IMG/VR virus record: IMGVR_UViG_3300007734_000751
Coordinates: 1-64,000 of that record
Source of the DNA: a virus
Reading direction: 5' to 3' (one strand)
DNA: 64,000 bases
A program made the position numbers and the translations under genes. Each line of letters begins with the position of its first letter. Position 1 is the stretch's first letter. Under the pieces are notes generated by a model, which had not been told where the DNA came from, did no database searches, and saw nothing but the letters and a program-made list of their open reading frames with translations. Below are positions 1,546-42,718 of the stretch, piece by piece.

Positions 1546-3888
1546 ATGGCCTTTATTTATAATCTTAGCGACACATGGAATGATGCTGCAACGACTTGGA
1601 ACGGCATTAAATTAGCCGTTACCAACTCTGGTTCTGATTCATCGTCCAAACTGCTTAATTTGACTGTTACAGGGGCGTCTACAGGGTCATTTACCGTCGA
1701 TAAAAGCGGTAATTTGCTCTTAAGTGGCTCGGTCAATAAGATTACGATGACGGCTCCAGCCACGGGCGCAACGCTCACGCTGGCTGATGGCTCTACTTTT
1801 GCGACATCTGGCGCTCACAGCGCAACTTTTACGTTCTCCGGCGCGACAACGCTGACGTTCCCAACGAGCGGCACGGTCACGGCGCTTGGCAACACGACGA
1901 CAGGCTCTGGCAGCATCGTCTTAGCGACCAGCCCTACGCTTGTTAGCCCTGCACTTGGCACGCCATCATCTGTCACGCTCACGAACGCCACTGGTCTGCC
2001 GATCTCGACGGGTCTGACAGGCACAGGCACGGGCGTTCTGACGGCTCTGGCTGTCAATGTCGGCTCTGCGGGCGCGTTTGTTACGTTTAATGGCGCGCTT
2101 GGCACGCCATCGTCAGGTAATCTATCAAACTGCACAGGCTACCCAGTTTCAGGTCTTGGTGGTCTTGGAACGGGCGTGGCGACTGCATTAGCAGTAAATG
2201 TCGGCTCTGCGGGCGCTTTCGTTGTTAATGGCGGTGCATTAGGCACGCCATCGTCAGGGACTCTGACAAATGCGACGGGATTACCTATTAGCACAGGCGT
2301 TGACGGCCTTGGGACAGGTGTTGCGACGTTCTTGGCGACGCCGACGAGCGCGAATCTCGCGGCGGCTGTCACAAATGAAACAGGGTCTGGGCCTCTAGTC
2401 TTTGCAACCAGCCCAACTTTCACGTCTCAGGTTACGCTTGGCACGTCTAGCTCGACACGCGGCACGTTGGTTCTATCCAACACAAGCGCCAATACGGTTA
2501 CGCTGCAATCATCAAATACCACCGCCGCAAATTACACGCTGACCTTCCCTGCGGCTGCACCTGTCAACGGTTACTACCTCCAAACTGACAGTCTTGGCGT
2601 CCTATCTTGGGCGGCAGGTGGTGGTGGAGGCGGTGGGTCACCCGGTGGGTCTAACACGCAGGTTCAGTTTAACGATTCCGCTACCTTTGGCGGTATGCCT
2701 GCCTTTACTTACGACAAGACGACCTACACGCTTGGTCTTGGTGTCGCTTCTACCTCTACAGGCACATTCAGCCTTTATAATTCAGCCAGCGCCAATTCTG
2801 TTAGCTTGAAGTCAGGTAACAACGCCTCTGCTTGGACGTTAACGCTGCCAACTGGCCCAGGAACAAACGGCTATGGCCTTGTAACGGACGGATCTGGCAA
2901 CACTTCATGGGCTGCTATTCCATCTGGCACGATTAACACCGGCACAATCGGTCAGATCACCTATTACAGCGGCACAAACGCGCTGTCTGGCACAACGACC
3001 GGCACGGGCGTCCTAACTGCTCTTGCGGTTAATACGGGATCTGCCGGAGCATTTGTTGTTAATGGCGGAGCGTTAGGCACACCTTCCAGCGGCACACTTT
3101 CGGGCTGCACAGGTCTGCCAATCTCTACCGGCGTGTCGGGTCTTGGCACAAGCGTAGCGACCGCATTAGCTGTCAATGTCGGAACGGCAGGCGCTGTTGT
3201 TGTTAATGGCGGAGCGTTAGGCACACCGTCTAGTGGCACGCTCTCAAGCTGCACGGGTTTGCCTGTTAGCACAGGTGTTAGTGGTCTTGGCACAAGCGTA
3301 GCGACCGCTTTAGCCGTTAACGTTGGTTCGGCTGGAGCGTTTGTCGTTAACGGCGGCGCTCTTGGAACGCCTTCAAGTGGCACACTTTCAAGCTGCACAG
3401 GTCTTCCTATTTCGACAGGTGTTAGTGGTTTAGGCAGTGGCGTTGCGACGTTCCTAGCGACACCGTCATCAGCCAATTTAGCTACTGCCGTTACGGACGA
3501 GACAGGCTCTGGTTCGTTGGTATTCGGCACGTCGCCTACGCTGTCGAATCCGACAGTCACTAACTACGTTGAGACATACTATAACATTGGCACAGTCACC
3601 TCTACGGTGACGTTGAATCTTGCCAATGGCACATTCCAAAACTTGACACTGACTTCAGCAACCGCTTTGACTGTAACAATGCCGACAGCCACCGCAGGTA
3701 AATCTTTCATCTTGATCGTTCGTCAACCTGCCTCTGGCACAGCAACAACGGCGACATTTACCAGCGTCAAATGGCCTGCTAGCACTGCTCCGACGATCAC
3801 AGCTACCGTTGGTAGAGCTGACATTATCTCGTTTTTCTCAGATGGCACGAACTGGTATGGTTCAGCCGTCCAAAACTTCACACCGTAA
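1546..3888 (+). CDS. Repeat-rich tail fibre protein
   Basis: A 780-residue Gly/Ser/Thr/Ala-rich fibrous protein. Residues ~1-130 form the conserved N-terminus shared with the 858-residue fibre of unit 2, the likely virion-binding end. The middle is built from a 48-residue repeat with the core GALGTPSSGTL followed by a TGLPISTGV-type segment; three copies are in strict tandem at 2992-3423 and related copies lie upstream near residues 160-260. A Gly run (GGGGGGGSPGGSNTQVQF) separates two halves. Repeats of this kind are known from shafts of trimeric phage fibres. The stop overlaps the next start (TAATG), linking shaft and adhesin translation. Confidence 0.85.
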   Translation: MAFIYNLSDTWNDAATTWNGIKLAVTNSGSDSSSKLLNLTVTGASTGSFTVDKSGNLLLSGSVNKITMTAPATGATLTLADGSTFATSGAHSATFTFSGATTLTFPTSGTVTALGNTTTGSGSIVLATSPTLVSPALGTPSSVTLTNATGLPISTGLTGTGTGVLTALAVNVGSAGAFVTFNGALGTPSSGNLSNCTGYPVSGLGGLGTGVATALAVNVGSAGAFVVNGGALGTPSSGTLTNATGLPISTGVDGLGTGVATFLATPTSANLAAAVTNETGSGPLVFATSPTFTSQVTLGTSSSTRGTLVLSNTSANTVTLQSSNTTAANYTLTFPAAAPVNGYYLQTDSLGVLSWAAGGGGGGGSPGGSNTQVQFNDSATFGGMPAFTYDKTTYTLGLGVASTSTGTFSLYNSASANSVSLKSGNNASAWTLTLPTGPGTNGYGLVTDGSGNTSWAAIPSGTINTGTIGQITYYSGTNALSGTTTGTGVLTALAVNTGSAGAFVVNGGALGTPSSGTLSGCTGLPISTGVSGLGTSVATALAVNVGTAGAVVVNGGALGTPSSGTLSSCTGLPVSTGVSGLGTSVATALAVNVGSAGAFVVNGGALGTPSSGTLSSCTGLPISTGVSGLGSGVATFLATPSSANLATAVTDETGSGSLVFGTSPTLSNPTVTNYVETYYNIGTVTSTVTLNLANGTFQNLTLTSATALTVTMPTATAGKSFILIVRQPASGTATTATFTSVKWPASTAPTITATVGRADIISFFSDGTNWYGSAVQNFTP
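2992..3423 (+). repeat. Three tandem 144-bp units in the fibre gene
   Basis: The units are 2992-3135, 3136-3279 and 3280-3423, each coding 48 residues with the core VVNGGALGTPSSGTL. A partial fourth unit begins at 3424. Bases differ at many third positions, so the array is old enough to have diverged but keeps its period. Such arrays can change length by recombination and so set fibre length. Confidence 0.8.
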
Positions 3889-25077: not shown

Positions 25078-26966
25078 TCTGGCTTGATTTTGAAACGCGG
25101 AGCGAGTGCGATCTAAAATCGATGGGCGTATATAACTACGCCCGTCATCCCACAACAGAAGTGTTGTGTATGTCTTACGCATACAACGACGATCCTGTGC
25201 AGACGTGGCGTCCAGGCGAGCCGTTCCCACGCTTGAACGGTCAGATCCGCGCGCACAACGCAGCGTTTGAGCGTCTGATTTTCTGGCATGTGTTAGACAA
25301 ACAGATCCCGCTTGAACAATTCTACTGCACCGCGTCACAAGCGAGAGCTAACTGTGCGCCAGGATCGCTCGAAGACGTTGCGCGTTTTGCTGGCACAAGC
25401 ATGCGTAAAGATCACCGAGGCAACTACTTGGTGCGTAAGCTCTGCATCCCGCCGTTCAGCAACGACGTGCGTTTGCTGCAAGAGCTGGTAGAATATTGCG
25501 AACAAGACGTGCGTACGATGCGCGCGGCATCTAAGGCGATGCGGGAACTGACAGATGAAGAGCTGGCAGATTATCATACTAATGAGCGGATCAATGATCG
25601 CGGCGTCTTGGTTGACGTATTTTTATGCCAAGCGGCGGTTCGATTTGCGGCTGATGAATTACAGGAAATCGAACGAATCGTTCGTGAGGTTACGAATGGC
25701 GAGATTACATCAGTCCGAAGCCCTAAGATGCGACAATGGGTTCAAGATCGTGTCGGCCCCGCAGCCCTCAAGCTCATGGAGCGCGACGACAAGTATAGTA
25801 TCGACAAGACGGCGCGCGCAAATTTATTGGCGATGGACGATCCTGAAGAAGTGCCGCCAGATGTTGCCGACGTTATACAGTGCGCTGACGATCTTTGGGC
25901 GTCTTCTGTAGCAAAGTTCAAGCGCCTTAACGATCTCGCCGGCGATGACCACAGAGTACGCGGCGCGTTCGTGTTCGCAGGTGGCAGCGCAACAGGGCGC
26001 GCGTCTAGCTACGGCGCGCAGGTTCATAATTTCACGCGCGTCTGCGCCGAAGAGCCAGAGGCTGTGCGTCATGCGATGGTGCGCGGACATAAGATCGTGC
26101 CTAAGTTCGGCAAGCGCGTCACTGATGTGCTCAAAGGTATGTTACGTCCTGCGATGATTCCGGCCAAGGGTCATCAGTTCGTCGTCGCCGATTGGTCGTC
26201 CATAGAAGCCCGTGTTACTCCGTGGTTGTCCATGAATGGCGATGACAAGCTTGCGTTATTTAATTCTGGACAAGATGTGTATAAGTTCAACGCATCAAAA
26301 ACCTTTGGTTGTGCAATAGAAGATGTGACAAAAGACCAACGCCAGGTTGGTAAAGTGCAAGAGCTTGCGTGTGGTTTTGCCGGCGGTGTCGGCGCGTTTG
26401 CTGCGATGGGTCGTGTATACGGAATTAACATGCCGGAAGACGAAGCCAGACGCATGGTAAACGCCTGGAGACTCGCAAATAAATGGTCAGTGCCGTTCTG
26501 GAATGACATCGAGATGGCGTACACGCGGGCGCTAGGTCGTCAAGACGAAATATTTAGCGCGGGTAGAATTAAATACTTGTTTCGCGGTGAGCACCTTTGG
26601 TATGCTCTCCCTTCGGGTCGCGTTCTTTGTTATCCCTATGCGCGGTTTGAAGATGACGGCAGTATAACTTACGCCAAAGCATCTTGGAAACCAGCCGCAG
26701 ACGCAAAGGAATGGCCCCGTGCACGGCTATGGCGTGGGCTTGCATGTGAGAATGTAACCCAAGCAGTTGCAAATGATTTATTAAGGTACAGTCTACGAAA
26801 TTTAAATAATGTTGTGCTTCATGTGCATGACGAAATAGTTGTCGAATCAGATGAGCCGGAAATAGCAAGGGAGGCTATGGTTCGTGTGATGACAACGCCG
26901 CCAGATTGGGCGGTTGGATTACCACTTGCCGTTGAGGCTAATATTATGGGGCGTTATGGAAAATAG
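25074..26966 (+). CDS. DNA polymerase, family A
   Basis: A 630-residue replicative polymerase. The exonuclease part begins at once: LDFETRSECDL (Exo I, residues 4-14), AHNAAFERLI (Exo II, ~62) and YCEQDVRTM (Exo III, ~140). The polymerase part has VVADWSSIEARVTPWLS (motif A, ~370-385), an ENVTQAVANDLLRYS segment (~555-570) and VLHVHDEIVVESDE (motif C, ~580-592). It is shorter than E. coli Pol I and has no 5' nuclease domain, like other phage versions. The start overlaps the preceding stop (ATGA) and the end overlaps the primase-helicase start by 11 bases. Confidence 0.93.
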   Translation: MIWLDFETRSECDLKSMGVYNYARHPTTEVLCMSYAYNDDPVQTWRPGEPFPRLNGQIRAHNAAFERLIFWHVLDKQIPLEQFYCTASQARANCAPGSLEDVARFAGTSMRKDHRGNYLVRKLCIPPFSNDVRLLQELVEYCEQDVRTMRAASKAMRELTDEELADYHTNERINDRGVLVDVFLCQAAVRFAADELQEIERIVREVTNGEITSVRSPKMRQWVQDRVGPAALKLMERDDKYSIDKTARANLLAMDDPEEVPPDVADVIQCADDLWASSVAKFKRLNDLAGDDHRVRGAFVFAGGSATGRASSYGAQVHNFTRVCAEEPEAVRHAMVRGHKIVPKFGKRVTDVLKGMLRPAMIPAKGHQFVVADWSSIEARVTPWLSMNGDDKLALFNSGQDVYKFNASKTFGCAIEDVTKDQRQVGKVQELACGFAGGVGAFAAMGRVYGINMPEDEARRMVNAWRLANKWSVPFWNDIEMAYTRALGRQDEIFSAGRIKYLFRGEHLWYALPSGRVLCYPYARFEDDGSITYAKASWKPAADAKEWPRARLWRGLACENVTQAVANDLLRYSLRNLNNVVLHVHDEIVVESDEPEIAREAMVRVMTTPPDWAVGLPLAVEANIMGRYGK

Positions 26967-29256
26967 AATCTTAGACTATGTCATTAGTCTTGCCGAAACC
27001 GGCGAAACGCCGCTTATCGTGCGTCAGATTCCACTTATGCGTGGTGGGGTTCATCAACAATATTTGGACGGATCTTATAAATATACTTGGCCCGCTTACT
27101 TGCCCGCGCATAAGCGCAAGAAAGGTGAAGCATGGTATATTAATACAGGTTCTTTTATTGTTGAGCGATTAAAAGACCGCATAAGCGCCGCAACAGCAAA
27201 TTGCGAATACGTGCTCTTTATGATGTTGGACGATATCGGCACTAAGTCCAAGATACCGCCGCTTAAGCCGACATGGATCGTTGAGACAAGCCCAGGCAAT
27301 TTTCAGTGGTGTTACGCATTTAGAGAACAACCTACAATAGGAGAATATTGTGCAGCCATTACAGCTATCGCCGACGCTGGTTATACCGACAAGGGCGCTA
27401 CTAATGCTGTGCGTAATTGCCGCTTGCCTGGTTCAGTTAATCTAAAGCCAGGACGCGATGCATTTACCTGCGTAGAAATAGAATTTAATCCTACTATAGA
27501 CTACACGTTAAAAGAAATATGCGATGCGCTCGGCGTTGTGCCAGGTGAAGCGTCTACGTCAATTTATAAATCAGTAACTGTAGAAGATACCGGCATTGAT
27601 AACGTAATGACGTGGCTCAACGAGCAAGGGCTTGTTCTGTCGCGTCCTAATCCTGCGGGATGGATGGGCGTTGTATGTCCTAATCACGAAGAACATAGTG
27701 ATGGACAGATTGAAGGCCGGTACAAGCCACTAGACAGATCTTATTGCTGTAAACACGCGCATTGCGAGCACCTTAACAGCGAAGCGTTTCTTACATGGGT
27801 CGCCGACAATGGTGGCCCGCGCGAGCGCCAAGGTATTCGAGGCGATCTTATTGCAAATGAATTTAAAGCAATGTTTGAAGGCATCAAGCCTAACGCGCTC
27901 TATCCAGATGTTGCATCTGAGCGTGTGGCGCAGGTAGATCGAGAAGAGGCTGGGCGTGTTGAGCGCGGTAGCTGGTATGAGCGCTTTGCGTACATCGTAG
28001 ATGACGACGCTTACTTTGACATGACAACGCGTAACGAGATCTCGCGCGGATCTTTCAATGCTATCTTTCGGCACATCAACTGCACATCAGTGCACAACCC
28101 CAAGCGCCGCATCGAGGCGTCTGTTTGTTTCGATGAGAACAGGCAAGAGCACAAAGCAAAATTATTGAAAGGCTTAACCTATGCGGCAGGTGAAAAGATC
28201 TTGGTGCATAAAGATGGCGAAGTCTATGGCAATAGATGGCGAGATGCGCGTCCCACTGTCGCACGAACAACTAGTGATATATCTCGCTTTACTGCCCATT
28301 GTGAACGATTGGTGGGAGATGAGATTGAACGAAACCATTGCTACGACGTTATGGCGTTTAAGCTCCAACACCCAGAAGTAAAAGTAAATCACGCCGTGTT
28401 GCATGGCGGCGATGAAGGCTCCGGCAAAGATACGATGTGGGCACCATTCATTTGGTCTGTCTGTGGCCCGAACAATCACAACTGGGGTATCATAGACAAC
28501 GAGAGCCTCTCTTCGCAGTGGGGCTATCAGCTAGAGAGCGAGATACTCATTCTTAACGAGCTACGCGAGCCGGAGGCCCGTGAGCGCCGCGCGCTGGCTA
28601 ACAAGCTCAAGCCCATTATTGCTGCGCCGCCTGACATGCTGCCGATCAACCGCAAGGGTCTGCATCCTTACGAGATGATCAACCGGCTGCTTGTGCTCGC
28701 GTTCACCAACGATCCGATTCCGATCTCTATACCGTCGCAAGACCGCCGCTGGTTCTGTCTGTGGTCTACTGCGCCGCGCATGTCGCCCGATGAGGCGCGT
28801 GAGATCTGGGCCTGGTATAAGGCCGGTGGCTTTGAGGCTATCGCCGCTTGGCTCTATGCGCGCGATGTGAGCAAGTTCAACCCTACCGCTGCGCCGCCTA
28901 TCACTGATTTCAAGCTTTCGCTTGTTGAGCATGGCATGTCTATGGCCGAGAGCTTTATCGTCGAGATGGCGCGCGGTCGCAAAGGCGATTTTGCTGCCGG
29001 CGTTATCGGTGGCCCGTTCCACGACATATGCTCGCGTATAAGCACCATGGCAGGCAATGGCGTTAAGGTGCCACAGGCAGCGCTTCTCCATGCGCTCAAG
29101 GAGGCCGGCTGGATAGATTGCGGGCGGCTGCACTCAGGTAAATATCAGACCAAGCGCCATGTGTTCTGCGCGCCTGAGATGGCTAGTCATAAAAATTCCG
29201 ACCTTCGGAACATGTGCGAACCCAATCCAACCCCAACCCTACAGGTGGTCAAATGA
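26956..29256 (+). CDS. Primase-helicase (RepB-like primase plus D5/DUF5906-type ATPase)
   Basis: A 766-residue replication protein starting at the ATG that overlaps the polymerase stop; an earlier in-frame ATG lies deep in the polymerase. Residues ~80-170 resemble RepB-type archaeo-eukaryotic primases (WIVETSPGNFQWCYAF, then AVRNCRLPGSVNLKPG). A Cys/His cluster near residues 235-265 (CPNHEEHS, then YCCKHAHCEH) looks like zinc binding. Residues ~483-495 hold GGDEGSGKDTMW, a Walker A of the DUF5906/D5 ATPases, followed by ILILNELREPE and AFTNDPIPI. It should prime and unwind at the fork together with the polymerase. Confidence 0.85.
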   Translation: MENRILDYVISLAETGETPLIVRQIPLMRGGVHQQYLDGSYKYTWPAYLPAHKRKKGEAWYINTGSFIVERLKDRISAATANCEYVLFMMLDDIGTKSKIPPLKPTWIVETSPGNFQWCYAFREQPTIGEYCAAITAIADAGYTDKGATNAVRNCRLPGSVNLKPGRDAFTCVEIEFNPTIDYTLKEICDALGVVPGEASTSIYKSVTVEDTGIDNVMTWLNEQGLVLSRPNPAGWMGVVCPNHEEHSDGQIEGRYKPLDRSYCCKHAHCEHLNSEAFLTWVADNGGPRERQGIRGDLIANEFKAMFEGIKPNALYPDVASERVAQVDREEAGRVERGSWYERFAYIVDDDAYFDMTTRNEISRGSFNAIFRHINCTSVHNPKRRIEASVCFDENRQEHKAKLLKGLTYAAGEKILVHKDGEVYGNRWRDARPTVARTTSDISRFTAHCERLVGDEIERNHCYDVMAFKLQHPEVKVNHAVLHGGDEGSGKDTMWAPFIWSVCGPNNHNWGIIDNESLSSQWGYQLESEILILNELREPEARERRALANKLKPIIAAPPDMLPINRKGLHPYEMINRLLVLAFTNDPIPISIPSQDRRWFCLWSTAPRMSPDEAREIWAWYKAGGFEAIAAWLYARDVSKFNPTAAPPITDFKLSLVEHGMSMAESFIVEMARGRKGDFAAGVIGGPFHDICSRISTMAGNGVKVPQAALLHALKEAGWIDCGRLHSGKYQTKRHVFCAPEMASHKNSDLRNMCEPNPTPTLQVVK

Positions 29257-29453
29257 AACCCGGTGCTATGCATGCCTTGAAAGATCCGTCACGTCTAACG
29301 CCTGCCGAGGAGCGCATATACGCCTACATGAAAGAGGGTTTGACCGCGAAGGAGATTGCTGTGAGAATAGGAACTGGAACTGCGGGAGCGATGAACTGCC
29401 GCATCAAGGTCATACGAGAAAAGCTTGCTACGCGCCTTATGCCTACTGGTTAG
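29253..29453 (+). CDS. Small helix-turn-helix protein
   Basis: A 66-residue protein starting on the primase-helicase stop (ATGA). RLTPAEERIYAYMKEGLTAK followed by EIAVRIG and VIREKL fits a LuxR/sigma-type helix-turn-helix. Unit 2 has a related HTH gene at another place (61419-61598), just before the aromatic-rich unknown gene. It may regulate phage transcription. The track of the frame upstream of 29253 is excluded because it lies in the previous gene. Confidence 0.75.
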   Translation: MKPGAMHALKDPSRLTPAEERIYAYMKEGLTAKEIAVRIGTGTAGAMNCRIKVIREKLATRLMPTG

Positions 29454-29970: not shown

Positions 29971-30000
29971 GCCCTCTAGCTATGGGGGCAGCTAGAGGGC
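29971..30000 (-). terminator. Hairpin terminator between convergent units
   Basis: GCCCTCTAGCT (29971-29981) and AGCTAGAGGGC (29990-30000) form a perfect 11-bp stem with an 8-base loop. On the minus strand it is followed by TTTTATTT, so it should stop the leftward small-gene transcript. On the plus strand there is no T tract, but the stem may also slow the rightward transcript. Confidence 0.8.
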
Positions 30001-30096: not shown

Positions 30097-30282
30097 TCAA
30101 AACATCGTATCCAGATACTGGACAATTTCCGCTTCTGTCATGCCTGTCTTTCTAGTCCATTTTGTCCAGAAACGCCACAGAGGCTTGTTGACATTCTCGC
30201 ATGGCTCGTCGCGTGGAATGTCGGGAATGGTGCATTGCAGCTCCTCGTATTGCTCTAGAAAATATTCTTTTATTTTAGACAT
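30097..30282 (-). CDS. Small unknown protein, last gene of the leftward cluster
   Basis: A 61-residue protein (KIKEYFLEQYEELQCTIPDI, then WTKWTRKTGMTEAEIVQYL) with helical ends and a Trp-rich centre. It starts 10 bases after the DnaA-like gene, behind GAGGTGCTGCT. No family is recognised. Placement in an unbroken run of small overlapping leftward genes supports it as real. Confidence 0.55.
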   Translation of the reverse strand: MSKIKEYFLEQYEELQCTIPDIPRDEPCENVNKPLWRFWTKWTRKTGMTEAEIVQYLDTMF

Positions 30283-30291
30283 AGCAGCACC

Positions 30292-30549
30292 TCAATGATT
30301 GCTGTTACTAGGACAATAAACGCCGATTCTTCGTTTTTCATAGTTAATCCCGCTTATGATGGTTGTATGGTCGCGTTTAAAGACGCGCGCTATTTGCGTA
30401 TAAGTTTTATCGGTTTCTATATGCGCGCGATACATGGCCTTGCGGCGCACTGCGATAACGCGCAGCGTGTTGTTATAAGAGATAAGGGTTTCATAGCTTA
30501 ACCCCGCCGCTTTCGCCTCCTCTTGTATTATTTGCTTTATTGTTTTCAT
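30292..30549 (-). CDS. Stand-alone DnaA domain IV-like DNA-binding protein
   Basis: An 85-residue protein. RVIAVRRKAMYRAHIETDKT followed by YTQIARVFKRDHTTIISGI matches the helix-turn-helix of DnaA domain IV, including the RDHTT signature loop that reads the DnaA box. The ATPase domains of DnaA are absent. I prefer the ATG at 30549 over an in-frame ATG at 30570 because the domain fits it and AGGAGGCGAAAG-type sequence lies farther upstream. It could redirect or block host DnaA at the DnaA boxes of the phage or host. Its 5' end overlaps the gene upstream by 59 bases. Confidence 0.75.
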   Translation of the reverse strand: MKTIKQIIQEEAKAAGLSYETLISYNNTLRVIAVRRKAMYRAHIETDKTYTQIARVFKRDHTTIISGINYEKRRIGVYCPSNSNH

Positions 30550-30751
30550 GTGGCCCCATATTAAAAGCAAAATTTAAAGCGCTCGCTATTGTCGCCAAAC
30601 CGCGCAAGTCTGCATGCGTTACGTAAAGGCGCATGATCGGCGTTTCTTTTCCATCACACTTGTAAATGATAACGCAGCTAGTGTTATCAGTCTTGATTGC
30701 TTTAGCTTTCATGCGCCCTGGGTGGTCACAAAATAAATCAAGATGTAGCAT
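30491..30751 (-). CDS. Small unknown protein of the leftward cluster
   Basis: An 86-residue protein. The N-terminal 55 residues look beta-rich (CVIIYKCDGKETPIMRLYV) and then a helix (LRGLATIASALNFAFNMG). An ATG at about residue 14 is an alternative start, but the ATG at 30751 overlaps the previous gene by 14 bases in the style of this cluster. The C-terminus overlaps the DnaA-like gene. No family recognised. Confidence 0.55.
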   Translation of the reverse strand: MLHLDLFCDHPGRMKAKAIKTDNTSCVIIYKCDGKETPIMRLYVTHADLRGLATIASALNFAFNMGPHENNKANNTRGGESGGVKL

Positions 30752-30989
30752 TTAATTTTTCCTTGTATTTTTTGACCATGCCTTCAAGGTAGCCATTGCG
30801 GACTGATAACTCTAAAATCTTGTCCTCCATGTCTTTAACTGTCCCAAACCCCCTTGCGACATAATTTAATTGTCTTTGAAGGCGTTCAATTTCCTTGTTT
30901 GCCTTTTTTAACTCGCGCAACAATAAGATCGGCTTGTTAAGCTCGTTAATCACATCATCTATTGGATTAGTTTTTCGTGGCGCGCGCAT
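30738..30989 (-). CDS. Small coiled-coil protein
   Basis: An 83-residue protein that is nearly all heptad-like helix after residue 10 (LRELKKANKEIERLQRQLN, then KILELSVRNGYLEGMVKKYK) with a basic N-terminus (MRAPRKTNP). Such small coiled-coil proteins are frequent in early phage regions and may bind host factors. It overlaps the small gene upstream by 23 bases. Confidence 0.6.
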   Translation of the reverse strand: MRAPRKTNPIDDVINELNKPILLLRELKKANKEIERLQRQLNYVARGFGTVKDMEDKILELSVRNGYLEGMVKKYKEKLNATS

Positions 30990-31098
30990 TGATTTCCCCC
31001 TCTATTAACTCGCGGCGTGTCTCGTCACCCTCACCCTGTAACATTAGCTCAAGCGCCGGTGTGGATAGGCGATAAAGCAAACAGCAAAAATCGTACAT
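30967..31098 (-). CDS. Very small protein of the leftward cluster
   Basis: A 43-residue frame (MYDFCCLLYRLSTPALELML, then an acidic Glu/Arg-rich end) that fills the space between two better supported genes and overlaps the downstream start by 23 bases. It begins one base before the stop of the membrane peptide gene upstream. Support comes only from tight packing, so confidence is modest. Confidence 0.4.
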   Translation of the reverse strand: MYDFCCLLYRLSTPALELMLQGEGDETRRELIEGEINARATKN

Positions 31099-31099
31099 G

Positions 31100-31198
31100 C
31101 TAGCCTCGTTCTATTAGGTAAAGTATGGTTATGATTGCCGCAGGTATGGCTAGGCTAACGCTTGCCGCTAGCCCTATGAGATAAAGAGCTTGCCTCAT
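31100..31198 (-). CDS. Very small membrane peptide
   Basis: A 32-residue frame with one hydrophobic helix spanning residues ~4-28 (ALYLIGLAASVSLAIPAA). Its ATG overlaps the stop of the gene upstream (ATGA), which argues for translation by coupling. It could target the host membrane. No homologue is available in the window because unit 2 is cut before this region. Confidence 0.5.
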   Translation of the reverse strand: MRQALYLIGLAASVSLAIPAAIITILYLIERG

Positions 31199-31509
31199 AT
31201 GTCTGCCTCATAACATGCGTCTTCTTCACATGATTGCTGCACATGGTCGCTATTTATTAGCGCGTCATATATAAGCTTATAAAGCCAGTGATCCTGGCTA
31301 AGATTAAGAGGCGACAAGTCTTTTTTATTGTTATGCAAAACAATTGACGTGATATCGATATCAGTGGCCCAGGCGTCAAAAATTCCTACGTCCGGCTCCG
31401 CGTCAGCCATTGTATACTCTATATCCGCTTCCCCTGTAGCTGTGACGGCATAGCCTGGAATTAACTCCAGCTCCTCAAAATTATATGTGAACGTGTTCGT
31501 CTTTTTCAT
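31195..31509 (-). CDS. Acidic unknown protein
   Basis: A 104-residue, strongly acidic protein (FEELELIPGYAVTATGEADI, then many Asp/Glu). I chose the ATG at 31509 behind AAGGGGGATAAC over one at 31551, which would run into the upstream gene. The acidic composition and early location recall DNA-mimic inhibitors, but this is speculation from charge alone. It overlaps the next gene start by four bases. Confidence 0.55.
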   Translation of the reverse strand: MKKTNTFTYNFEELELIPGYAVTATGEADIEYTMADAEPDVGIFDAWATDIDITSIVLHNNKKDLSPLNLSQDHWLYKLIYDALINSDHVQQSCEEDACYEADI

Positions 31510-31519
31510 GTTATCCCCC

Positions 31520-31705
31520 TTAGTCGTTCTCAGCCGTTCTATCCCAGTCATACCGCGCGCAGTGTTGGCGCTCGGCTTCGTTGTCGTACTCTTCTTGCAT
31601 AGTGTGCAGCGCGTCGATTAAATGCCAAGGCAAGGGCGCGGGTTGAGCGTTTAAGATTTTAATAAGCGCCTCGACCGCCTCATGTTCTAGTGTTAGCTCT
31701 ATCAT
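31520..31705 (-). CDS. Small unknown protein
   Basis: A 61-residue protein (MIELTLEHEAVEALIKILN, then LPWHLIDALHTMQEEYDNEA) rich in Glu and His, likely two helices. The ATG at 31705 is preferred over the long upstream extension because it follows the previous stop within two bases. No family recognised. Confidence 0.5.
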   Translation of the reverse strand: MIELTLEHEAVEALIKILNAQPAPLPWHLIDALHTMQEEYDNEAERQHCARYDWDRTAEND

Positions 31706-31706
31706 G

Positions 31707-31913
31707 TTACACCCCATAGGTTTCGATATATTGACGCGCCGCGCGATAGCCCATGACGGTAAACGCGTCATTAATTTGATCGATATATTTAAGCTCGGCT
31801 TGCTCATTAACGCCGCGCATAGCGTCAGCAGCAGCTCTCGCGTCTTTAACAATATATTCAAGCTCGGCGTCAGTCTTTTTATGATATGGGTGATCTTTTA
31901 ATGGCTTTTTCAT
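31707..31913 (-). CDS. Small helical unknown protein
   Basis: A 68-residue Ala/Asp-rich helical protein (KKTDAELEYIVKDARAAADA, then DQINDAFTVMGYRAARQYIE). The KTDAELEYIVKDA pattern with a basic start is common in small phage proteins. It overlaps the upstream gene by four bases (ATGA). Confidence 0.6.
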   Translation of the reverse strand: MKKPLKDHPYHKKTDAELEYIVKDARAAADAMRGVNEQAELKYIDQINDAFTVMGYRAARQYIETYGV

Positions 31914-32137
31914 TTTAACATCCCCTTCAATTCTGCCTTAACGCGCCGCGCGGTATCGCCGCGCCATGTCGAGGCGTTACATAAAAAATAGCGAACAATA
32001 CTTTCGCCGCTATCATAACCATAGGGTTGATTGATATCGTCCAGCGTCGACATAGCTTGCAGGTATGGTACCGCGCCAAAGTATGGCTTGCGCCAGTCTT
32101 GCGCTATCTCGCGCGCTATTGTTGATAGTGTTCTCAT
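31910..32137 (-). CDS. Small unknown protein
   Basis: A 75-residue protein (STIAREIAQDWRKPYFGAVP, YLQAMSTLDD, then YGYDSGESIVRYFLCNASTW). The YLxAMxxLDxI...YG.DSG..IV.YFLxNAxxWRG pattern is one I know from many phages and plasmids as an uncharacterised short protein. It overlaps the genes on both sides by four bases. Confidence 0.65.
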   Translation of the reverse strand: MRTLSTIAREIAQDWRKPYFGAVPYLQAMSTLDDINQPYGYDSGESIVRYFLCNASTWRGDTARRVKAELKGMLK

Positions 32138-32406
32138 AATATAACCCCCTCTCTTAAAGCTTGCGCCATGTCATCTTGCGCCGTGTAAGTAACGCGCCCC
32201 CTATGATCTTTTATTGGTGTTGTTTTGTATCGTGTCCCGAACAAGCGCCCGCGCTCATAGGCCCATTGATCGTTGAGCGTTTTTCCCGCGTCATAATTAA
32301 ATGGTTTACCTTCACGCGCCTCTTTAACGCCGCGATTGAATAGAGCGCTCCTCATTATAATTTTTAACGAAACGGTCTTAGTAGTAACTTGCTGTATGGT
32401 AGCCAT
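32134..32406 (-). CDS. Small unknown protein
   Basis: A 90-residue basic protein (RSALFNRGVKEAREGKPFNY, then NDQWAYERGRLFG). The FxxG...AxxGxPF......WxYERGR motif recurs in uncharacterised phage proteins. It overlaps the downstream gene by four bases and touches the upstream stop by one. Confidence 0.6.
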   Translation of the reverse strand: MATIQQVTTKTVSLKIIMRSALFNRGVKEAREGKPFNYDAGKTLNDQWAYERGRLFGTRYKTTPIKDHRGRVTYTAQDDMAQALREGVIL

Positions 32407-33176
32407 TATGCGGCCCTCCCTACGCGGAACCCGTGAAGGTTAATCACGATATCTTTAGACGATTTACTGCTATTGCCAGCGCATAGGCCGCATTTATCGC
32501 AGCTAGTGCGCGCGCCGTTTTCTTTAGCGGCAGGGCAACCAATTTCATTAGATGATTTAACGTCTTTAGATTTTTTGGCGCGGAAGGTTCGCCATCCACA
32601 AGCGCTAGCAAGTAAATGGTCTGATTCTGATTCGCAGCTAGCCATACATAGCAGCGAGAAAGCCTGAAAGCGCGGGTCGCGCCATTGGTGGCTATAGCCT
32701 GTAATCTTGGCAGCTCTTAACGTCGCGGCGCGCCATATCTGAAAAGGTATTGCGGCAGGGTCGCCATACGTGCCAAGTCTAAACGCTAGCCCTTCAAATA
32801 GCTCCGGCAATATAGCAGGGTCATAGTCTATGCCAGGGCGCGCATAGCGCTTGCGCTCATATGCGCCGTAAACGCTCACTACTGATTTAGCCACGTCAAC
32901 GTAGCATTTACCGCCCTTGAAGGGTCGCTGGGGGCAATCTCCACAAATGCTATGATCACGCCCGTCTTTAATTGCTGTAAAAGGATTAACATCGGCGCGT
33001 ATTATGAAAGTCTGAACCATTGCGCCGGTCTTAGCATTGGCGCTATTCGCGATAATGCGATTAGCTATCGCCACGATAGGCGCGCCATCGATGGCGCTTG
33101 GCCCTTCATATAATATCACGCCGGTAAATTGATTGCGCTTTATCGCTAGGCGCAAGGCGCTTGCTGTATCAATCAT
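32406..33176 (-). CDS. Cys-rich phage protein (DUF7227-like)
   Basis: A 256-residue protein, the largest of the cluster. Two Cys groups are visible: ICGDCPQRPFKGGKCYV near residue 75 and CPAAKENGARTSCDKCGLC near residue 225, both likely metal sites. Between them lie RLGTYGDPAAIP and ITGYSHQWRDPRF, typical of a phage/plasmid family I recall as DUF7227. I chose the ATG at 33176 over 33200. It is the first gene behind its own candidate promoter. Function is unknown; some relatives have been noted next to rolling-circle and phage replication genes. Confidence 0.7.
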   Translation of the reverse strand: MIDTASALRLAIKRNQFTGVILYEGPSAIDGAPIVAIANRIIANSANAKTGAMVQTFIIRADVNPFTAIKDGRDHSICGDCPQRPFKGGKCYVDVAKSVVSVYGAYERKRYARPGIDYDPAILPELFEGLAFRLGTYGDPAAIPFQIWRAATLRAAKITGYSHQWRDPRFQAFSLLCMASCESESDHLLASACGWRTFRAKKSKDVKSSNEIGCPAAKENGARTSCDKCGLCAGNSSKSSKDIVINLHGFRVGRAA

Positions 33177-33212
33177 TAGACTACCCTCATATTGAGACAA
33201 AAAGACATTAGG

Positions 33213-33240
33213 ACGTTAACACAAAATCTTTATTAGTCAA
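33213..33240 (-). promoter_or_regulatory. Candidate leftward promoter (weak -10)
   Basis: On the minus strand TTGACT (33240-33235) is followed after 16 bases by TAACGT. The 12-base block GCTATTGACTAA containing the -35 is identical to that of the stronger promoter at 33780-33807, so both may answer to the same regulator. Confidence 0.4.
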
Positions 33241-33509
33241 TAGCCTCTATTGTGATCATAGTTACGAATTTTTGATCTTTTTTCGCGCGCGACGCGTTCG
33301 CGGAATTTTGGGTTGCTATTCGTTCTCTCGCGATAGCGAACGATAAACAACGACGCGTCGCAATCCTCCTCTAGGTAAAGATCGTCGCCTCGGCGATAGC
33401 TATATGAGCTAAAGTCCGCCGACGTTAATCCTAGAGCGAACAAATCGCGGGTGTTTACCTTCAACCATCCATGACCAGGGTCAGATATAAAATCAAATGT
33501 CGTACGCAT
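33237..33509 (-). CDS. Small unknown protein (GHGWLKV type)
   Basis: A 90-residue protein with SDPGHGWLKVNTRDLFALGL, a YSYRRGDDLYLEEDCDASLF segment and a basic C-terminus (REKRSKIRNYDHNRGY). The HGWLxV...L...LG pattern is widespread in uncharacterised phage proteins. Its stop codon lies inside the next promoter. Confidence 0.6.
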   Translation of the reverse strand: MRTTFDFISDPGHGWLKVNTRDLFALGLTSADFSSYSYRRGDDLYLEEDCDASLFIVRYRERTNSNPKFRERVAREKRSKIRNYDHNRGY

Positions 33510-33547
33510 GATATTTAATCCTTTTTAGTTAGAGATTAGAGCGGCGC

Positions 33548-33745
33548 TTATGCGCGCCGCTTTCTTTTCTTTGGTGCTACGTATTGCGCCGCTTGTTGCT
33601 CATAGTGCTCGACATGTCTTTGCAATTGCTCGACCGTCGTAAAGAAAGCGCAAAAAGTCATTATGTCTTGGTTGATATTTGCGGGATGATTTTGCGCCGA
33701 TGTTAAACGCGCCATCAGTTCGGGGTTGCTTTTCCATATGGTCAT
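33548..33745 (-). CDS. Small unknown protein, first gene of the leftward cluster
   Basis: A 65-residue protein with a helical body (TTVEQLQRHVEHYEQQAAQY) and a basic tail (PKKRKRRA). It has a good ribosome site (GAGGAG, 9 bases before ATG) and lies 35 bases behind the best leftward promoter, so it should be the first product made. Function unknown; the tail suggests nucleic acid binding. Confidence 0.6.
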   Translation of the reverse strand: MTIWKSNPELMARLTSAQNHPANINQDIMTFCAFFTTVEQLQRHVEHYEQQAAQYVAPKKRKRRA

Positions 33746-33779
33746 TTTGGGTTGCTCCTCTTTGCGATTTGATGATCAT

Positions 33780-33807
33780 ATATTAGCAAAGATTTTTTGT
33801 TAGTCAA
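33780..33807 (-). promoter_or_regulatory. Leftward promoter of the small-gene cluster
   Basis: On the minus strand TTGACT (33807-33802), a 16-base spacer and TAATAT (33785-33780) give a good sigma70-type promoter. It overlaps one copy of the 17-bp direct repeat, so a protein bound there would cover the spacer. Confidence 0.65.
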
Positions 33808-33840
33808 TAGCTTTTTTGTTAAAAGCAAAGATTTTTTGTT
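33785..33840. repeat. Two 17-bp direct repeats at the leftward promoter
   Basis: AGCAAAGATTTTTTGTT occurs at 33785-33801 and again at 33824-33840, 39 bases apart, with a shortened relative between them (33809-33821). The first copy lies in the promoter spacer. They may be operator sites or bent A/T tracts. Confidence 0.65.
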
Positions 33841-33885
33841 TATTCTGGTCTTGATGGTCTTGAATGGTTAAATATATTTTAAAAA

Positions 33886-34155
33886 TGACCATGTTAAACG
33901 TGTTGAATTGGCGGGTTTTAGTGTTAAATGGTCATTATGGTCATTATTGTTTAATTCTAAGAAAAATTTATATATGTATACAAATAAAGATAGTGTGTCA
34001 CCATTCTTGGCGCGATTTTTTCCGCGTGACCATTTGACCATAATGACCAAAAGCCCCTCTTCTTTGCCGCGTTTTCTTCCCCCATGTTGACATATATGTT
34101 TACATTCATATACCAGTGTGACCTCCGACTAGTAAACGCGTGACCATAATGACCA
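33886..34155. repeat. TGACCA iteron-like clusters
   Basis: TGACCA hexamers start at 33886, 34027, 34035, 34044, 34141 and 34150, and in the other orientation at 33929 and 33938. Within groups the period is 8 or 9 bases, giving the 15-mer TGACCATAATGACCA three times (once inverted). Clustered short repeats with constant period are typical of replication initiator or repressor binding sites. Confidence 0.6.
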
Positions 34156-34200
34156 TGAGTTATGTCGACATTTGAATGACAACTTAGTTTATGTAAACAT
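34084..34200. promoter_or_regulatory. Four ATGTNNACAT palindromes, candidate operators
   Basis: Ten-base dyads lie at 34084 (ATGTTGACAT), 34096 (ATGTTTACAT), 34162 (ATGTCGACAT) and 34191 (ATGTAAACAT). A near match is at 33974. The first contains the -35 box of the rightward promoter and the second lies in its spacer, so a dimeric repressor bound there would block it. Confidence 0.6.
34087..34114 (+). promoter_or_regulatory. Candidate rightward promoter for packaging genes
   Basis: TTGACA (34087-34092), a 16-base spacer and TATACC (34109-34114) point towards the small terminase gene, leaving a leader of about 230 bases with further TGACCA and ATGTNNACAT sites. Confidence 0.5.
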
Positions 34201-34349
34201 AGTTGACAATCATTTGACTAAACGACCATGCGCGCCAATTCGACGGCATGCGACGCGACGGGGGGACTGGGCCTTGCGTGGTCTGGGAATATCTACGCAG
34301 GGATTACACAAACTTTTTTTTATTTTTAAAATATGGTAATAAAGATTCT

Positions 34350-34874: not shown

Positions 34875-36267
34875 GCACTTCGAAGGCCCACGCAAATGGC
34901 AGCGCGAGGTGCTCGTTGAACTGCGCGATCACATCCACGCAAACAACGGACGAATAGACTTCGAGACGCTGCGGCTGGCGGTCAGTTCAGGACGCGGTAT
35001 CGGTAAGTCTGCGCTAGTCAGTTGGCTGACAATTTGGATGCTGACCACGCGGATCGGCTCGACGACCATCGTGTCGGCTAACTCGGAAGCGCAGCTCCGT
35101 AGCGTCACCTGGGCCGAGATAACAAAGTGGTTGAGCATGGCGATTCACAGCCACTGGTTCGAGGTATCCGCAACGCGGGTGCTACCGGCTAAGTGGATCG
35201 CGGAGTTGGTCGAACGTGATCTGAAAATGGGAACGCGCTACTGGGGCGTAGAAGGGCGGTTGTGGAGTGCGGAGAATCCTGACGCATACGCTGGTGTGCA
35301 CAACTTCGCGGGTGTCATGCTGGTATTCGATGAGGCGAGCGGAATTGATGATTCTATCTGGTCAGTTGCAGCGGGCTTTTTTACGGAAAATACCCCTAAT
35401 CGCTTTTGGTTGTGCTTCAGCAACCCCCGTCGTAACTCTGGTTACTTTTATGAGTGTTTTAACTCCAAGCGCGACTTCTGGCGAAATAAGATTGTCGATG
35501 CCCGATCTGTCGAAGGGACGGATAAAGCCGTCTACCAGCAAATCATTGACGAGTATGGGCCAGACTCCAGCGCGGCGCATGTCGAAGTCTACGGTCAGTT
35601 CCCCAACGCATCAGACGACCAGTTCATCGGAAACGCGCTGGTTGACGAGGCAATGGAACGTCCCGCTGTCGCCGACCAGTCCGCCCCCATCGTGGTCGGA
35701 GTGGATCCAGCACGCTTTGGGGCCGACGCCACCGTTATAGCCATAAGGCAGGGCAGAGACATCCTAGCCATCAAGCGCTACCGAGGCGACGACACGATGG
35801 AGGTTGTCGGTCGTGTCATCGATGTCATCGAAGAGTTCAAGCCAGCCTTGGTCGTCATCGACGAAGGCGGCTTGGGTGCGGGTGTAGTGGATCGGTTGAA
35901 GGAGCAGCGCTACAAGGTGCGCGGCGTGAACTTCGGCAATAAGAGCACGAAGCCCATGATGTATGGGAACAAGCGCGCTGAGATGTGGGGCGCGATGAAG
36001 GACTGGCTGAAGGACGCGAGCATACCGAAGGATCGCTACTTAAAATCTGACCTCATCGGGCCAATGATGAAGCCGGACTCGAAAGGCACCATATTCCTAG
36101 AGTCTAAGAAGGACATGAAAAGCAGAGGACTGGCGTCTCCAGACGCGGCGGACGCTATCGCGATAACCTTCGCATTTCCCGTAGCTAGACGCGAACAGCG
36201 AGTAGACAACACACGTCGCCTCGCGTATGGTGGCAACGCAGCCTCTTCAGGATGGATGGCAAGCTAA
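34741..36267 (+). CDS. terL: Terminase large subunit
   Basis: A 508-residue packaging motor. Residues ~82-92 hold SSGRGIGKSAL (Walker A), ~192-200 hold MLVFDEAS (Walker B), and CFSNPRRNSGYFYE lies in the coupling region. The nuclease domain shows VGVDPARFGADATVIA (~318), LVVIDEGGLGAG (~371) and PDAADAIAITFA (~466), giving the acidic active site residues. An ATG at 34783 behind GGAGGAAG would shorten the overlap with the small subunit and is a fair alternative start. It uses ATP to fill the procapsid and cuts DNA, docking on the portal. Confidence 0.93.
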   Translation: MQTTIYSPEEEQRLMATLWNPALKDDPLAFVRLAFPWKKPNTPLEHFEGPRKWQREVLVELRDHIHANNGRIDFETLRLAVSSGRGIGKSALVSWLTIWMLTTRIGSTTIVSANSEAQLRSVTWAEITKWLSMAIHSHWFEVSATRVLPAKWIAELVERDLKMGTRYWGVEGRLWSAENPDAYAGVHNFAGVMLVFDEASGIDDSIWSVAAGFFTENTPNRFWLCFSNPRRNSGYFYECFNSKRDFWRNKIVDARSVEGTDKAVYQQIIDEYGPDSSAAHVEVYGQFPNASDDQFIGNALVDEAMERPAVADQSAPIVVGVDPARFGADATVIAIRQGRDILAIKRYRGDDTMEVVGRVIDVIEEFKPALVVIDEGGLGAGVVDRLKEQRYKVRGVNFGNKSTKPMMYGNKRAEMWGAMKDWLKDASIPKDRYLKSDLIGPMMKPDSKGTIFLESKKDMKSRGLASPDAADAIAITFAFPVARREQRVDNTRRLAYGGNAASSGWMAS

Positions 36268-40141: not shown

Positions 40142-42718
40142 ATGGCCTTTATTTATAATCTTACTGACACTTGGAATGACGTTACAACTACATGGAACGG
40201 CATTAAATTAGCCGTTACCGACTCTGGTTCGTCATCGACTTCCAAACTCCTGAATTTAACGATTTCTGGCTCGTCAACGGGCTATTTTTATGTCGATAAA
40301 AGCGGAAATCTGACGCTTTCAGGAACTGTCAATAAGGTTACTTTAACGGCTCCAGCTACCAGCGCAACGCTTACGCTGGCTGATGGCTCTACTTTTGCGA
40401 CTTCTGGCGCTTATACGAGCACTTTTACCTTCACCGGCACGACTGCGCTGACGTTCCCAACGAGCGGCACGGTTACAGCGCTCGGTAACTCAACAACTGG
40501 CTCTGGTAGCATCGTCCTTCAGTCAAGCCCAACTCTGGTCACGCCTAATCTTGGCACGCCATCATTTGCAACGCTTACAAATGCTACTGGTCTGCCGATC
40601 TCGTCAGGTGTTAGCGGTCTTGGCACCAATGTGGCAACGGCGCTTGGCGTAAGTGTCGGCACAGACGGCGCATTTGTTGTAAAAGGCGGGGCGTTAGGCA
40701 CACCATCGTCAGGTAATTTATCAAGCTGCACAGGTTATGTCGTCGGTAATCTATCTGGCCTCGGCACAGGCGTAGCGACATGGCTTGCGACGCCATCTAG
40801 CGCCAATTTAGCAGCCGCTGTCACGGATGAGACAGGATCAGGCTCATTAGTTTTCGCTACATCACCAACCCTCGTTACACCTGCACTTGGGACGCCATCT
40901 TCGGCGACGCTAACCAATGCGACGGGATTACCTATTAGCACAGGCGTTAGCGGCCTTGGGACAGGTGTTGCGACGTTCTTGGCGACGCCGACGAGCGCGA
41001 ATCTCGCGGCGGCTGTCACGAATGAAACAGGATCTGGGCCTCTAGTCTTCGCAACCAGCCCGACTTTCACGTCTCAGGTTACGCTTGGCACGGCTAGTTC
41101 GACACGCGGCACGTTGGTTCTTGCTAATACAAGCGCCAATACGGTCACGCTACAATCCTCAAATACCACCGCAGCGGCTTACACGCTGACGTTCCCAGCG
41201 GCTGCGCCTGTTAATGGTTACTACCTTCAGACCGACAATCTTGGCGTCCTATCTTGGGCGGCAGGGGGCGGCGGTGGCGGTGGGTCACCTGGCGGGTCTA
41301 ACACGCAGGTTCAGTTTAACGATTCCGCGACATTCGGCGGCGAAGCTGCTTTTACATATACTAAAGCAACATACACGCTTGGGCTTGGCGTTGCCTCTAC
41401 ATCTACTGGCACATTCAGCCTTTATAACTCAGCCAGCGCCAATTCTGTTAGCTTAAAGTCAGGCAATAATAGCGTCGCTTGGTCGTTGACCTTACCTACG
41501 ACCGCAGGCACAGCTAATTACTTCCTGCAAACTGACGGCTCTGGCAACACCACATGGGCTGCGGCTGCGGCAGGCACGATCAACACCGGCACAGTCGGTC
41601 AGATCACCTATTACAGCGGCACAAACACGCTGTCTGGCACAACTACTGGCACGGGTGTCTTAACGGCTCTTGGTAACAACACGAACACCGCTGGCGGCGT
41701 TCTTGTTCCTGCGGCAGCTCTTACAGCAAGTGCTATCGTTCTTGGCGGCGGGTCTGGTACCGGCCCAGCTACGACGACAACAGGCACAGGCGTCATCACA
41801 GCCATCGGCAATGCTGTTAATACGGCAGGCGGTTTGTTAGCCCCTGCGGCAGCTCTCACTGCAAGCTCTCTTGTTGTCGGCGGAGGTTCTGGCACTGGCC
41901 CGTCAACGATAACGACCGGCACGGGCGTTGTTACGGCTCTCGGTGTCAACACAGGATCTGCCGGAGCGTTTGTCGTCAACGGCGGCGCGCTCGGCACACC
42001 GTCATCTGGCACACTCTCAAGCTGCACAGGGTTATCTCTTACAACTGGCGTTTCTGGCGTTCTTCCTGTCGCTAACGGCGGCACGAACGCATCTTCAGCC
42101 GGTATTACAGCGTTTAATAATATTACGGGTTACACAGCGGCGGGCGCGACAGGAACCACAAGCACCAATCTTGTGTTTTCGACCAGCCCGACACTTGTTA
42201 CGCCGGTTCTTGGTGCAGCAACAGCTACAAGCATCAACGGTCTGACGATCACATCGTCTACTGGCACGCTGACCGTTACTAACGGTAAAACGGCTTCTTT
42301 CAGTAACTCGATAACCTTTGCGGGCACTGATTCTACAACGATGACGTTCCCTGCAACGTCGTCGACAGTGCTTACGACAGGCAATACCGCTACAATTACA
42401 AAAGGCTATACTGTAACGCCATATAGCATTGGCACTGTATCTAGTGGCACATCAACGCCAGATCCGGCAAACGGTAACTATCAATATCTGACGAATGGCG
42501 GCGCATTTACTTTGGCAGCTCCGTCATCTGATTGTGCTATTGATATTCTTGTTATTAATGGCGCATCTTCAGGAGCTATTACTTTTAGTGGATTCAAAAC
42601 ACCTGGGACGGGTGTAACAGGAGCTACTTACGCTACTACCAATAGCACTTGGTGGGTTCTATCTATTCGCCGAACTAATAGTGTATCCACATATTCTTGG
42701 AATGGGCCTTGGACGTAA
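40142..42718 (+). CDS. Repeat-rich tail fibre protein, unit 2
   Basis: An 858-residue fibre. The first ~490 residues align well with the unit 1 fibre, including the Gly run and SPGGSNTQVQFNDSATFGG. After that it differs: instead of three tandem 48-residue units it carries two copies of a GVLVPAAALTASAIVLGGGS-type repeat (residues ~515-590), one GALGTPSSGTL unit and a VLPVANGGTNASSAGITAFN segment typical of phage fibres. The last ~130 residues are unrelated to unit 1 and end in a beta-rich SIRRTNSVSTYSWNGPW. The stop overlaps the adhesin start (TAATG). Confidence 0.85.
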   Translation: MAFIYNLTDTWNDVTTTWNGIKLAVTDSGSSSTSKLLNLTISGSSTGYFYVDKSGNLTLSGTVNKVTLTAPATSATLTLADGSTFATSGAYTSTFTFTGTTALTFPTSGTVTALGNSTTGSGSIVLQSSPTLVTPNLGTPSFATLTNATGLPISSGVSGLGTNVATALGVSVGTDGAFVVKGGALGTPSSGNLSSCTGYVVGNLSGLGTGVATWLATPSSANLAAAVTDETGSGSLVFATSPTLVTPALGTPSSATLTNATGLPISTGVSGLGTGVATFLATPTSANLAAAVTNETGSGPLVFATSPTFTSQVTLGTASSTRGTLVLANTSANTVTLQSSNTTAAAYTLTFPAAAPVNGYYLQTDNLGVLSWAAGGGGGGGSPGGSNTQVQFNDSATFGGEAAFTYTKATYTLGLGVASTSTGTFSLYNSASANSVSLKSGNNSVAWSLTLPTTAGTANYFLQTDGSGNTTWAAAAAGTINTGTVGQITYYSGTNTLSGTTTGTGVLTALGNNTNTAGGVLVPAAALTASAIVLGGGSGTGPATTTTGTGVITAIGNAVNTAGGLLAPAAALTASSLVVGGGSGTGPSTITTGTGVVTALGVNTGSAGAFVVNGGALGTPSSGTLSSCTGLSLTTGVSGVLPVANGGTNASSAGITAFNNITGYTAAGATGTTSTNLVFSTSPTLVTPVLGAATATSINGLTITSSTGTLTVTNGKTASFSNSITFAGTDSTTMTFPATSSTVLTTGNTATITKGYTVTPYSIGTVSSGTSTPDPANGNYQYLTNGGAFTLAAPSSDCAIDILVINGASSGAITFSGFKTPGTGVTGATYATTNSTWWVLSIRRTNSVSTYSWNGPWT

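Follow-up and report, generated by a model that had tools for sequence, protein, structure and literature searches.

In phage P4, the single alpha protein has primase and helicase parts and binds the origin through its C-terminal domain, and the iterons lie away from the gene that encodes it. In the PLE satellites, the DNA-binding domain of the RepA_N initiator covaries with the iterons, and the two are swapped together as a module; the iterons are about 30 bp long and semi-palindromic, with two module types. Odn of ICP1 is an origin-directed nuclease, and the origin sequence matters in the conflict between phage and parasite (PMC8263062). Here, we analyze a stretch of 64 000 bases of viral DNA (hereafter, the window), the first part of the IMG/VR record IMGVR_UViG_3300007734_000751 (72 555 bases), which contains a leftward island of small genes (30097–33745, minus strand). 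On one side of the island is the gene of a primase-helicase (26914–29256, plus strand), the putative initiator, and on the other is an array of short repeats (33739–34156) that is probably a replication origin. Across the relatives of this phage, the type of the repeat follows a hairpin in the C-terminal domain of the primase-helicase.

The similarity to P4 alpha consists in the combination of primase, helicase and C-terminal domain in a single protein, with the iterons away from the gene; the differences are that the N-terminal primase here belongs to the RepB_primase family, that the C-terminal domain has no Pfam family, and that the binding of the iterons is something that we infer. As in PLE, the iterons covary with a part of the initiator, but here they are tandem repeats of 6–8 nt that come in many types, with the changes traceable to single hairpin residues. 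By itself, the island is another hypervariable phage operon. The array and the close, type-switched pairs of relatives, however, amount to a large natural data set from which the residues that a viral replication initiator uses to read DNA could be identified and probed one substitution at a time. Why the origin type has changed so often is a question that follows from it. The repeat types would also sort uncultured phages into replication groups, which might compete, or be parasitised, separately.

Repeat type and the primase-helicase hairpin

The array occupies the intergenic region between g1, the first gene of the island, and terS, from which the island is read, just outside the boundaries given to the island in the preliminary description. 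Nine TGGTCA sites are found within the 665-bp region tested (1050 to 385 bp before terL), and the spacing between neighbours is 9 bp in three pairs and 8 bp in one. The array is the only place in the window with tandem pairs of TGGTCA, and when 7-mer repetition is scanned in 665-base windows along the entire 64 kb, the top three windows all fall at the array. At the same place in the relatives, 70 of the 105 non-redundant loci contain a repeated 7-mer that exceeds all 40 shuffles, a count that covers only this region, so that arrays located elsewhere escape detection. The repeats of the relatives are often direct, with a 9-bp period, and include TGACCA, TAGTCA, TTGGGTCA, TAGGGCAA, TAGGGTA, TAGGTCA and GTCCACA, among others. 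One relative (L270) has GTCCACA and TGACCCA together upstream of terL and may have been caught midway through a switch of type.

The primase-helicase contains two domains above the Pfam cut-offs, RepB_primase (29.4 bits vs 24.3) and DUF5906 (39.9 vs 27.6), and its helicase part matches the solved structures 6k9c and 6k9e, labelled ‘Primase’ (E 9e-4). The residues that follow a W-x-D-x-G motif near the C-terminus sort the repeat types. These residues belong to the hairpin IDCGRLHSGKYQTKR (29113–29157, plus strand), in which the columns of His (29131–29133) and Gln (29146–29148) follow the iteron type. Because the primase-helicase follows this unique iteron array, the two suggest an initiator and its origin.

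Relatedness among the loci was controlled for with 37 disjoint nearest pairs, with a body identity of at least 70%, in which ‘same residue’ was compared with ‘same repeat’ for each of the 344 primase columns. The hairpin columns rank 1, 2, 3 and 5, the first two being the Gln column, concordant in 36 of the 37 pairs, and the His column (34 of 37); the balanced accuracy over all 344 columns has a median of 0.533 and a 95th percentile of 0.686. Among the arrays of the form TNGTCA, the variable base goes with a single residue: all 6 loci with G have His, all 9 with A have Met, all 3 with T have Ala, and the 1 with C has Cys. This holds without exception in the 19 loci that have a dominant base out of the 129 training and held-out loci; in the other 110, no TNGTCA array dominates or the hairpin could not be recognised. 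At least three changes are needed to explain the Met-A group on a tree from which the hairpin and everything that follows it were left out, so the group is not a single lineage. In one pair (L426 and L447), the primase bodies are 97% identical, one protein has Met and the other Ala, and the repeats are unrelated.

Repeat predictions were written down before the new loci were read. Of 141 further loci, 108 had the region, 25 near-copies of training regions were set aside, and 75 non-redundant ones were tested; 59 of these carried no prediction, and 13 of 16 predictions were right (12 in the VASGD class, whose members are close relatives, and one for TAGGCG), with the three misses lacking a detectable array. 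For the RLMS/RLMC clade, the written predictions did not contain the Met-A rule, as they named CMS, the Met column having been singled out earlier, and the Ala-T rule for RLASHD/RLASAD was noticed only after the held-out loci had been read.

Two other proteins were considered as readers of the array and rejected. The g13 proteins of two relatives (L186 and L187) are nearly the same, yet the repeats are ATAGTCA and TACCCTA, respectively; similarly, the N-terminus of TerS is nearly identical across repeat classes (L049 and L035 vs L039 and L113; L179 vs L187).

Taken further, the covariation would amount to a code, to which we give an even chance: one hairpin residue would pick one base of TNGTCA (His-G, Met-A, Ala-T, Cys-C) and the adjacent hairpin residues would pick the other positions. 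Lineages would switch replication type by few substitutions and the rewriting of a dozen sites, perhaps to evade satellites, competing phages or nucleases that exploit the origin. A promoter of the island embedded in the array would tie early transcription to the same code. No residue-base code for such primases was found in the literature on iterons, primases and phage origins, represented mostly by titles and the openings of abstracts.

Several observations weigh against a hairpin-read origin. In whole-protein Mantel comparisons over 35 loci, the primase is not singled out (rho of 0.28–0.31 for the primase parts vs 0.26–0.27 for terL and terS), and over the 28 loci with g13, the C-terminal part of the primase reaches 0.15 vs 0.34 for terS; column mutual information, in which relatedness is not controlled for, is as high for g13 and TerS columns as for those of the primase. 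Some close pairs (L557 and L549; L072 and L065) share the residue and differ in the motif. The Met is the only residue private to both TAGTC training groups, and control groupings have 0–5 such residues. Neither a Pfam family nor a solved structure matches the C-terminal domain, taken from base 28861 onward, so ‘winged helix’ is a name prompted by the look of its sequence. Among the relatives, 35 of the 105 non-redundant loci have no repeat above the shuffles, and the array might consist of operator sites instead of forming an origin. The best-placed of the promoter-like sites, a candidate island promoter TTGACT-N16-TAATAT with an extended -10 (33780–33807, minus strand), is one of 10 such sites, compared with 9.7 (standard deviation 3.4) in shuffled sequences; the numbers do not rise above chance and, for this reason, the earlier claim that the island has its own promoters is not borne out statistically.

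The island and the alternatives

The island consists of 14 minus-strand open frames, g1–g14, of 65, 90, 256, 90, 75, 68, 61, 104, 32, 43, 83, 86, 85 and 61 amino acids. Homologues of all 14 were detected with tblastn among 166 loci, from 5 for g6 to 92 for g3, and all 14 are under purifying selection, with the per-gene median ratio of nonsynonymous to synonymous polymorphism (pN/pS) between 0.05 and 0.40, which is why these frames are considered to be genes rather than chance frames. The lowest median, 0.05 (range 0.02–0.59), is that of g9. The preliminary description, which reported tiny overlapping genes, was thus right about the island and about the mostly small size of its genes, but not about g3, which is not tiny, and overlaps are found at only 7 of the 13 junctions (1, 4, 4, 4, 23, 14 and 59 nt), the remaining six being gaps of 1–60 nt.

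In the relatives, as the comparison of islands suggested in that description showed, the island is found at the same place, between the primase-helicase gene and the terminase, and on the same strand, with a conserved core and a rapidly changing front. Profile searches over 171 loci detected g13 in 108, g8 in 102, g10 in 97, g7 in 88 and g14 in 69, invariably on the minus strand, and the 41 full islands contain these genes in 34, 28, 27, 24 and 22 cases, respectively. The promoter-proximal genes g1, g2 and g5 are present in only 2, 4 and 5 of the 41. Thus, the conserved core (g7, g8, g10, g13 and g14, all within g7–g14) is promoter-distal and the variable part is promoter-proximal. The distance from the primase end to the terL start ranges from 2775 to 8181 bases (median 4840) in 56 islands, whose 414 called genes form 153 clusters, including 92 singletons, as obtained with a home-made gene caller that drops genes shorter than 35 amino acids or with a weak score and that missed g9, g10 and g12 in the window itself. 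In the 58 representatives of relatives' islands that were scanned, a sliding-clamp-like domain, dUTPase, dCTP-deaminase-like, HNH, metallophosphatase and helix-turn-helix (HTH) proteins were found. The small phage genes of the island form a genuine operon that is at once conserved and highly variable. A LuxR-type HTH-like protein is encoded on the plus strand after the primase here (29214–29453); in copy B, one of the two genome copies in the record (see below), and its kin, it is on the minus strand inside the island (L006:8063–8236).

It appears fairly probable that a P22-like podovirus carries the island as an accessory operon that is read leftward from a promoter inside the replication origin, that is, the iteron array, and that is placed between the initiator gene and the origin. 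The computations establish the genes and the selection on them, their synteny and turnover, the array with its changes of type among relatives, and the covariation with the hairpin. Origin function, direct binding by the primase-helicase, early timing and a takeover function are what we infer. After phage entry, the host polymerase would read the island leftward and would stop at the strong terminator before reaching the replication genes, which run rightward. The core products (g7, g8, g10, g13 and g14) would aid both replication and transcription, g13 serving as a helper that binds DNA. The genes of the variable front would handle particular hosts or defences. The C-terminal hairpin of the primase-helicase would bind the TGGTCA iterons and so start replication. 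With iterons on either side of the promoter and one over the start codon of g1, the same binding may in addition down-regulate the island.

A different emphasis, that most of the island products inhibit host functions or defences and that g8 is a DNA mimic, is tentative, with a probability falling just short of even. The preliminary description had proposed host takeover or anti-defence, and the position, orientation, small size, selection and rapid turnover of the genes do fit an accessory island of the early type; host takeover is a reasonable conjecture. A further point in its favour is the acidity of g8 (net charge -16), which is retained in all 39 aligned relatives (-9 to -18) with identity down to 23%. 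On the other side, PADLOC gave no defence-model match for the 10 of the 14 window island proteins that were scanned. The structure of g8 is predicted (predicted local distance difference test, pLDDT, 90.2) to combine three strands with two helices, and this mixed strand-helix fold lacks a clear relative in the PDB: Foldseek detected no match at E 0.001, and among the structural matches listed, all of them weak, there is no known DNA mimic, Ocr-like or other. The structure prediction proposed as a check for mimicry returned weak matches only, with the strong conserved acidity standing, and g8 is possibly a DNA mimic. Furthermore, g13, a core gene, along with several genes in the relatives' islands, belongs to DNA metabolism. 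The similarity of g13 to DnaA domain IV suggests DNA binding rather than takeover: the protein scores 45.1 bits against Bac_DnaA_C (PF08299; cut-off 31.5) and retains the RDHTT motif, but at 85 amino acids it is domain IV alone, without the AAA+ ATPase part.

The array itself is unlikely to be, in place of an origin, a set of operators for a repressor or a late regulator, at which the primase would bind to control transcription. In favour of this, the intergenic region is divergent and holds the candidate island promoter; the protein that covaries with the repeats, however, is the primase-helicase, not a repressor, and neither the DnaA-like g13 nor TerS tracks the repeat type. A packaging (pac) site read by TerS is still less probable, to the point of being improbable. 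Packaging sites are commonly located near terS, and the array is directly upstream of this gene, but the near-identity of the TerS N-termini between classes with different repeats argues against it, and a conserved non-coding element at 34260–34330 is a better pac or cos candidate. Chance repetition, or functionless decaying sequence, for which the relatives lacking an above-shuffle repeat could speak, is hardly credible given the excess over shuffles in the majority of the relatives, the tandem pairs with a period of about 9 bp in class after class and the covariation that extends to held-out loci.

Individual island proteins

The preliminary description singled out several products, and the following labels hold: g13 is a DnaA-like DNA binder by the Pfam cut-off, g8 is the strongly acidic 104-residue protein, the label of membrane peptide appears to fit the hydrophobic sequence of g9, and g3 is a Cys-rich DUF7227-like protein, correctly, if remotely, so. 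In the order of transcription on the minus strand, the island starts with g1 (65 amino acids, 33548–33745), which has a basic tail and a start codon overlapped by a TGGTCA site. It is followed by g2 (90 amino acids, 33237–33509), g3 (256 amino acids, 32406–33176), g4 (90 amino acids, 32134–32406), g5 (75 amino acids, 31910–32137), which matches phrog_13953 (E 2.2e-33), and g6 (68 amino acids, 31707–31913); g2, g4 and g6 are recognized by their tblastn homologues and pN/pS. Then come the core genes g7 (61 amino acids, 31520–31705) and g8 (31195–31509), the peptide g9 (32 amino acids, 31100–31198), the core gene g10 (43 amino acids, 30967–31098), g11 (83 amino acids, 30738–30989), whose product looks like a coiled coil and which is supported by tblastn homologues and pN/pS, and g12 (86 amino acids, 30491–30751), which shares 59 nt (30491–30549) with g13, the stand-alone HTH protein similar to DnaA domain IV (30292–30549). 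The last gene is g14 (61 amino acids, 30097–30282), which, like g7 and g10, was traced by profile searches and pN/pS. Only g13 among the island proteins passes a Pfam cut-off. The g12/g13 overlap recurs in relatives, where it measures 56 nt in one case (L010, by tblastn ends).

The g3 protein is a clear member of phrog_2554 (E 4.5e-68, residues 13–250). Against DUF7227 (PF23872), it scores 15 bits, below the Pfam cut-off of 27, and 56 of its 66 relatives give weak matches (best E 1.2e-5). In a profile-profile comparison with true DUF7227 proteins, the probability is 93% (E 3.3e-7) over 182 columns, near full length, with the cysteines shared, the DUF7227 side consisting of two sequences (L560 and L561) after exclusion of three further loci with stops; the N-terminal part is not alike. 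Records from this phage group likewise include true DUF7227 proteins, with 5 of 49 above the cut-off; no literature on DUF7227 was found. The g3 family is present in 147 of 50,697 phage records, with hosts including Mycobacterium, Gordonia, Klebsiella, Microcystis, Ruegeria and others, and the annotated phage entries among the matches listed read ‘hypothetical protein’. In a collection of bacterial genomes, g3 homologues are encoded at 61 loci, with several copies per genome in filamentous cyanobacteria (Calothrix, Rivularia and kin; L290–L331). The common neighbours at the bacterial loci include tyrosine recombinases, TniB, TniQ and DUF6876; are the cyanobacterial homologues cargo of mobile elements?

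Seven cysteines, His163, His248 and Arg133 are invariant in all 65 non-redundant g3 sequences, the cysteines being spaced CX2CX9C and CX11CX2CX2C. In the AlphaFold2 model (pLDDT 90.6), strands and helices alternate, and Cys78, Cys81 and Cys91 sit between the third strand and the long helix after it. Structural comparison of the model (VIA) placed radical S-adenosylmethionine (SAM) enzymes in 8 of the first 10 rows, but with Z of at most 3.4, and Foldseek detected no match at E 0.001. A radical SAM-like fold is suspected, and this is no more than a lead, since the canonical CX3CX2C motif is absent and sequence profiles are not linked: the hhalign probability was 0.1–0.2 for Pfam Radical_SAM, for DUF5131 and for the control AP_endonuc_2, the comparison with DUF5131 being weak because its set comprised 11 rows, including one (L340) plainly read in the wrong frame. 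As a radical SAM enzyme, g3 was rejected after these profile comparisons. In one relative with an otherwise very similar island, a GP88-family protein (PF17338; L188:2570–3307) stands directly before g4, in the exact place of g3, with no hhalign signal between the two; this slot appears to house interchangeable metal-binding enzymes.

Terminator, conserved element and record structure

The island ends at an intrinsic terminator with a 12-pair stem and a T tail (29971–30000, minus strand). This stem is the longest of the 14 terminator-like sites detected, a number that compares with 7.1 (standard deviation 2.9) such sites in shuffles, and bears out the strong terminator reported earlier. Between the array and terS lies the conserved non-coding element GGGGGGACTGGGCCTTG...TTTTTTTT (34260–34330, plus strand), the pattern of which, GGGGGG-CTGGGCCTTG ... 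T run, is found in 55 of 179 relatives. It forms a weak hairpin (z -1.8), and the Rfam scan of the window yielded no match; it may be a pac or cos site, or a terminator.

The record contains two diverged copies of one genome plan, head to tail, of about 38 kb each, with 66–88% identity. Its first 127–140 bases are repeated exactly at 38597, its terminal 181 bases match 35242–35422 exactly, and relatives with a single genome copy span 37–39 kb. The record is probably a chimeric assembly in which the assembler joined two related phages via a shared terminase-portal stretch; the island is part of the first of the two. DNA similarity searches gave no match besides MW202483.1, an environmental podovirus from Manatee Spring, which is the nearest annotated phage, with a 95% identical terminase. 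A gene of 780 amino acids (1546–3888) and its counterpart in the second copy contain diverged internal repeats (1989–3512 and 40604–42052, respectively).

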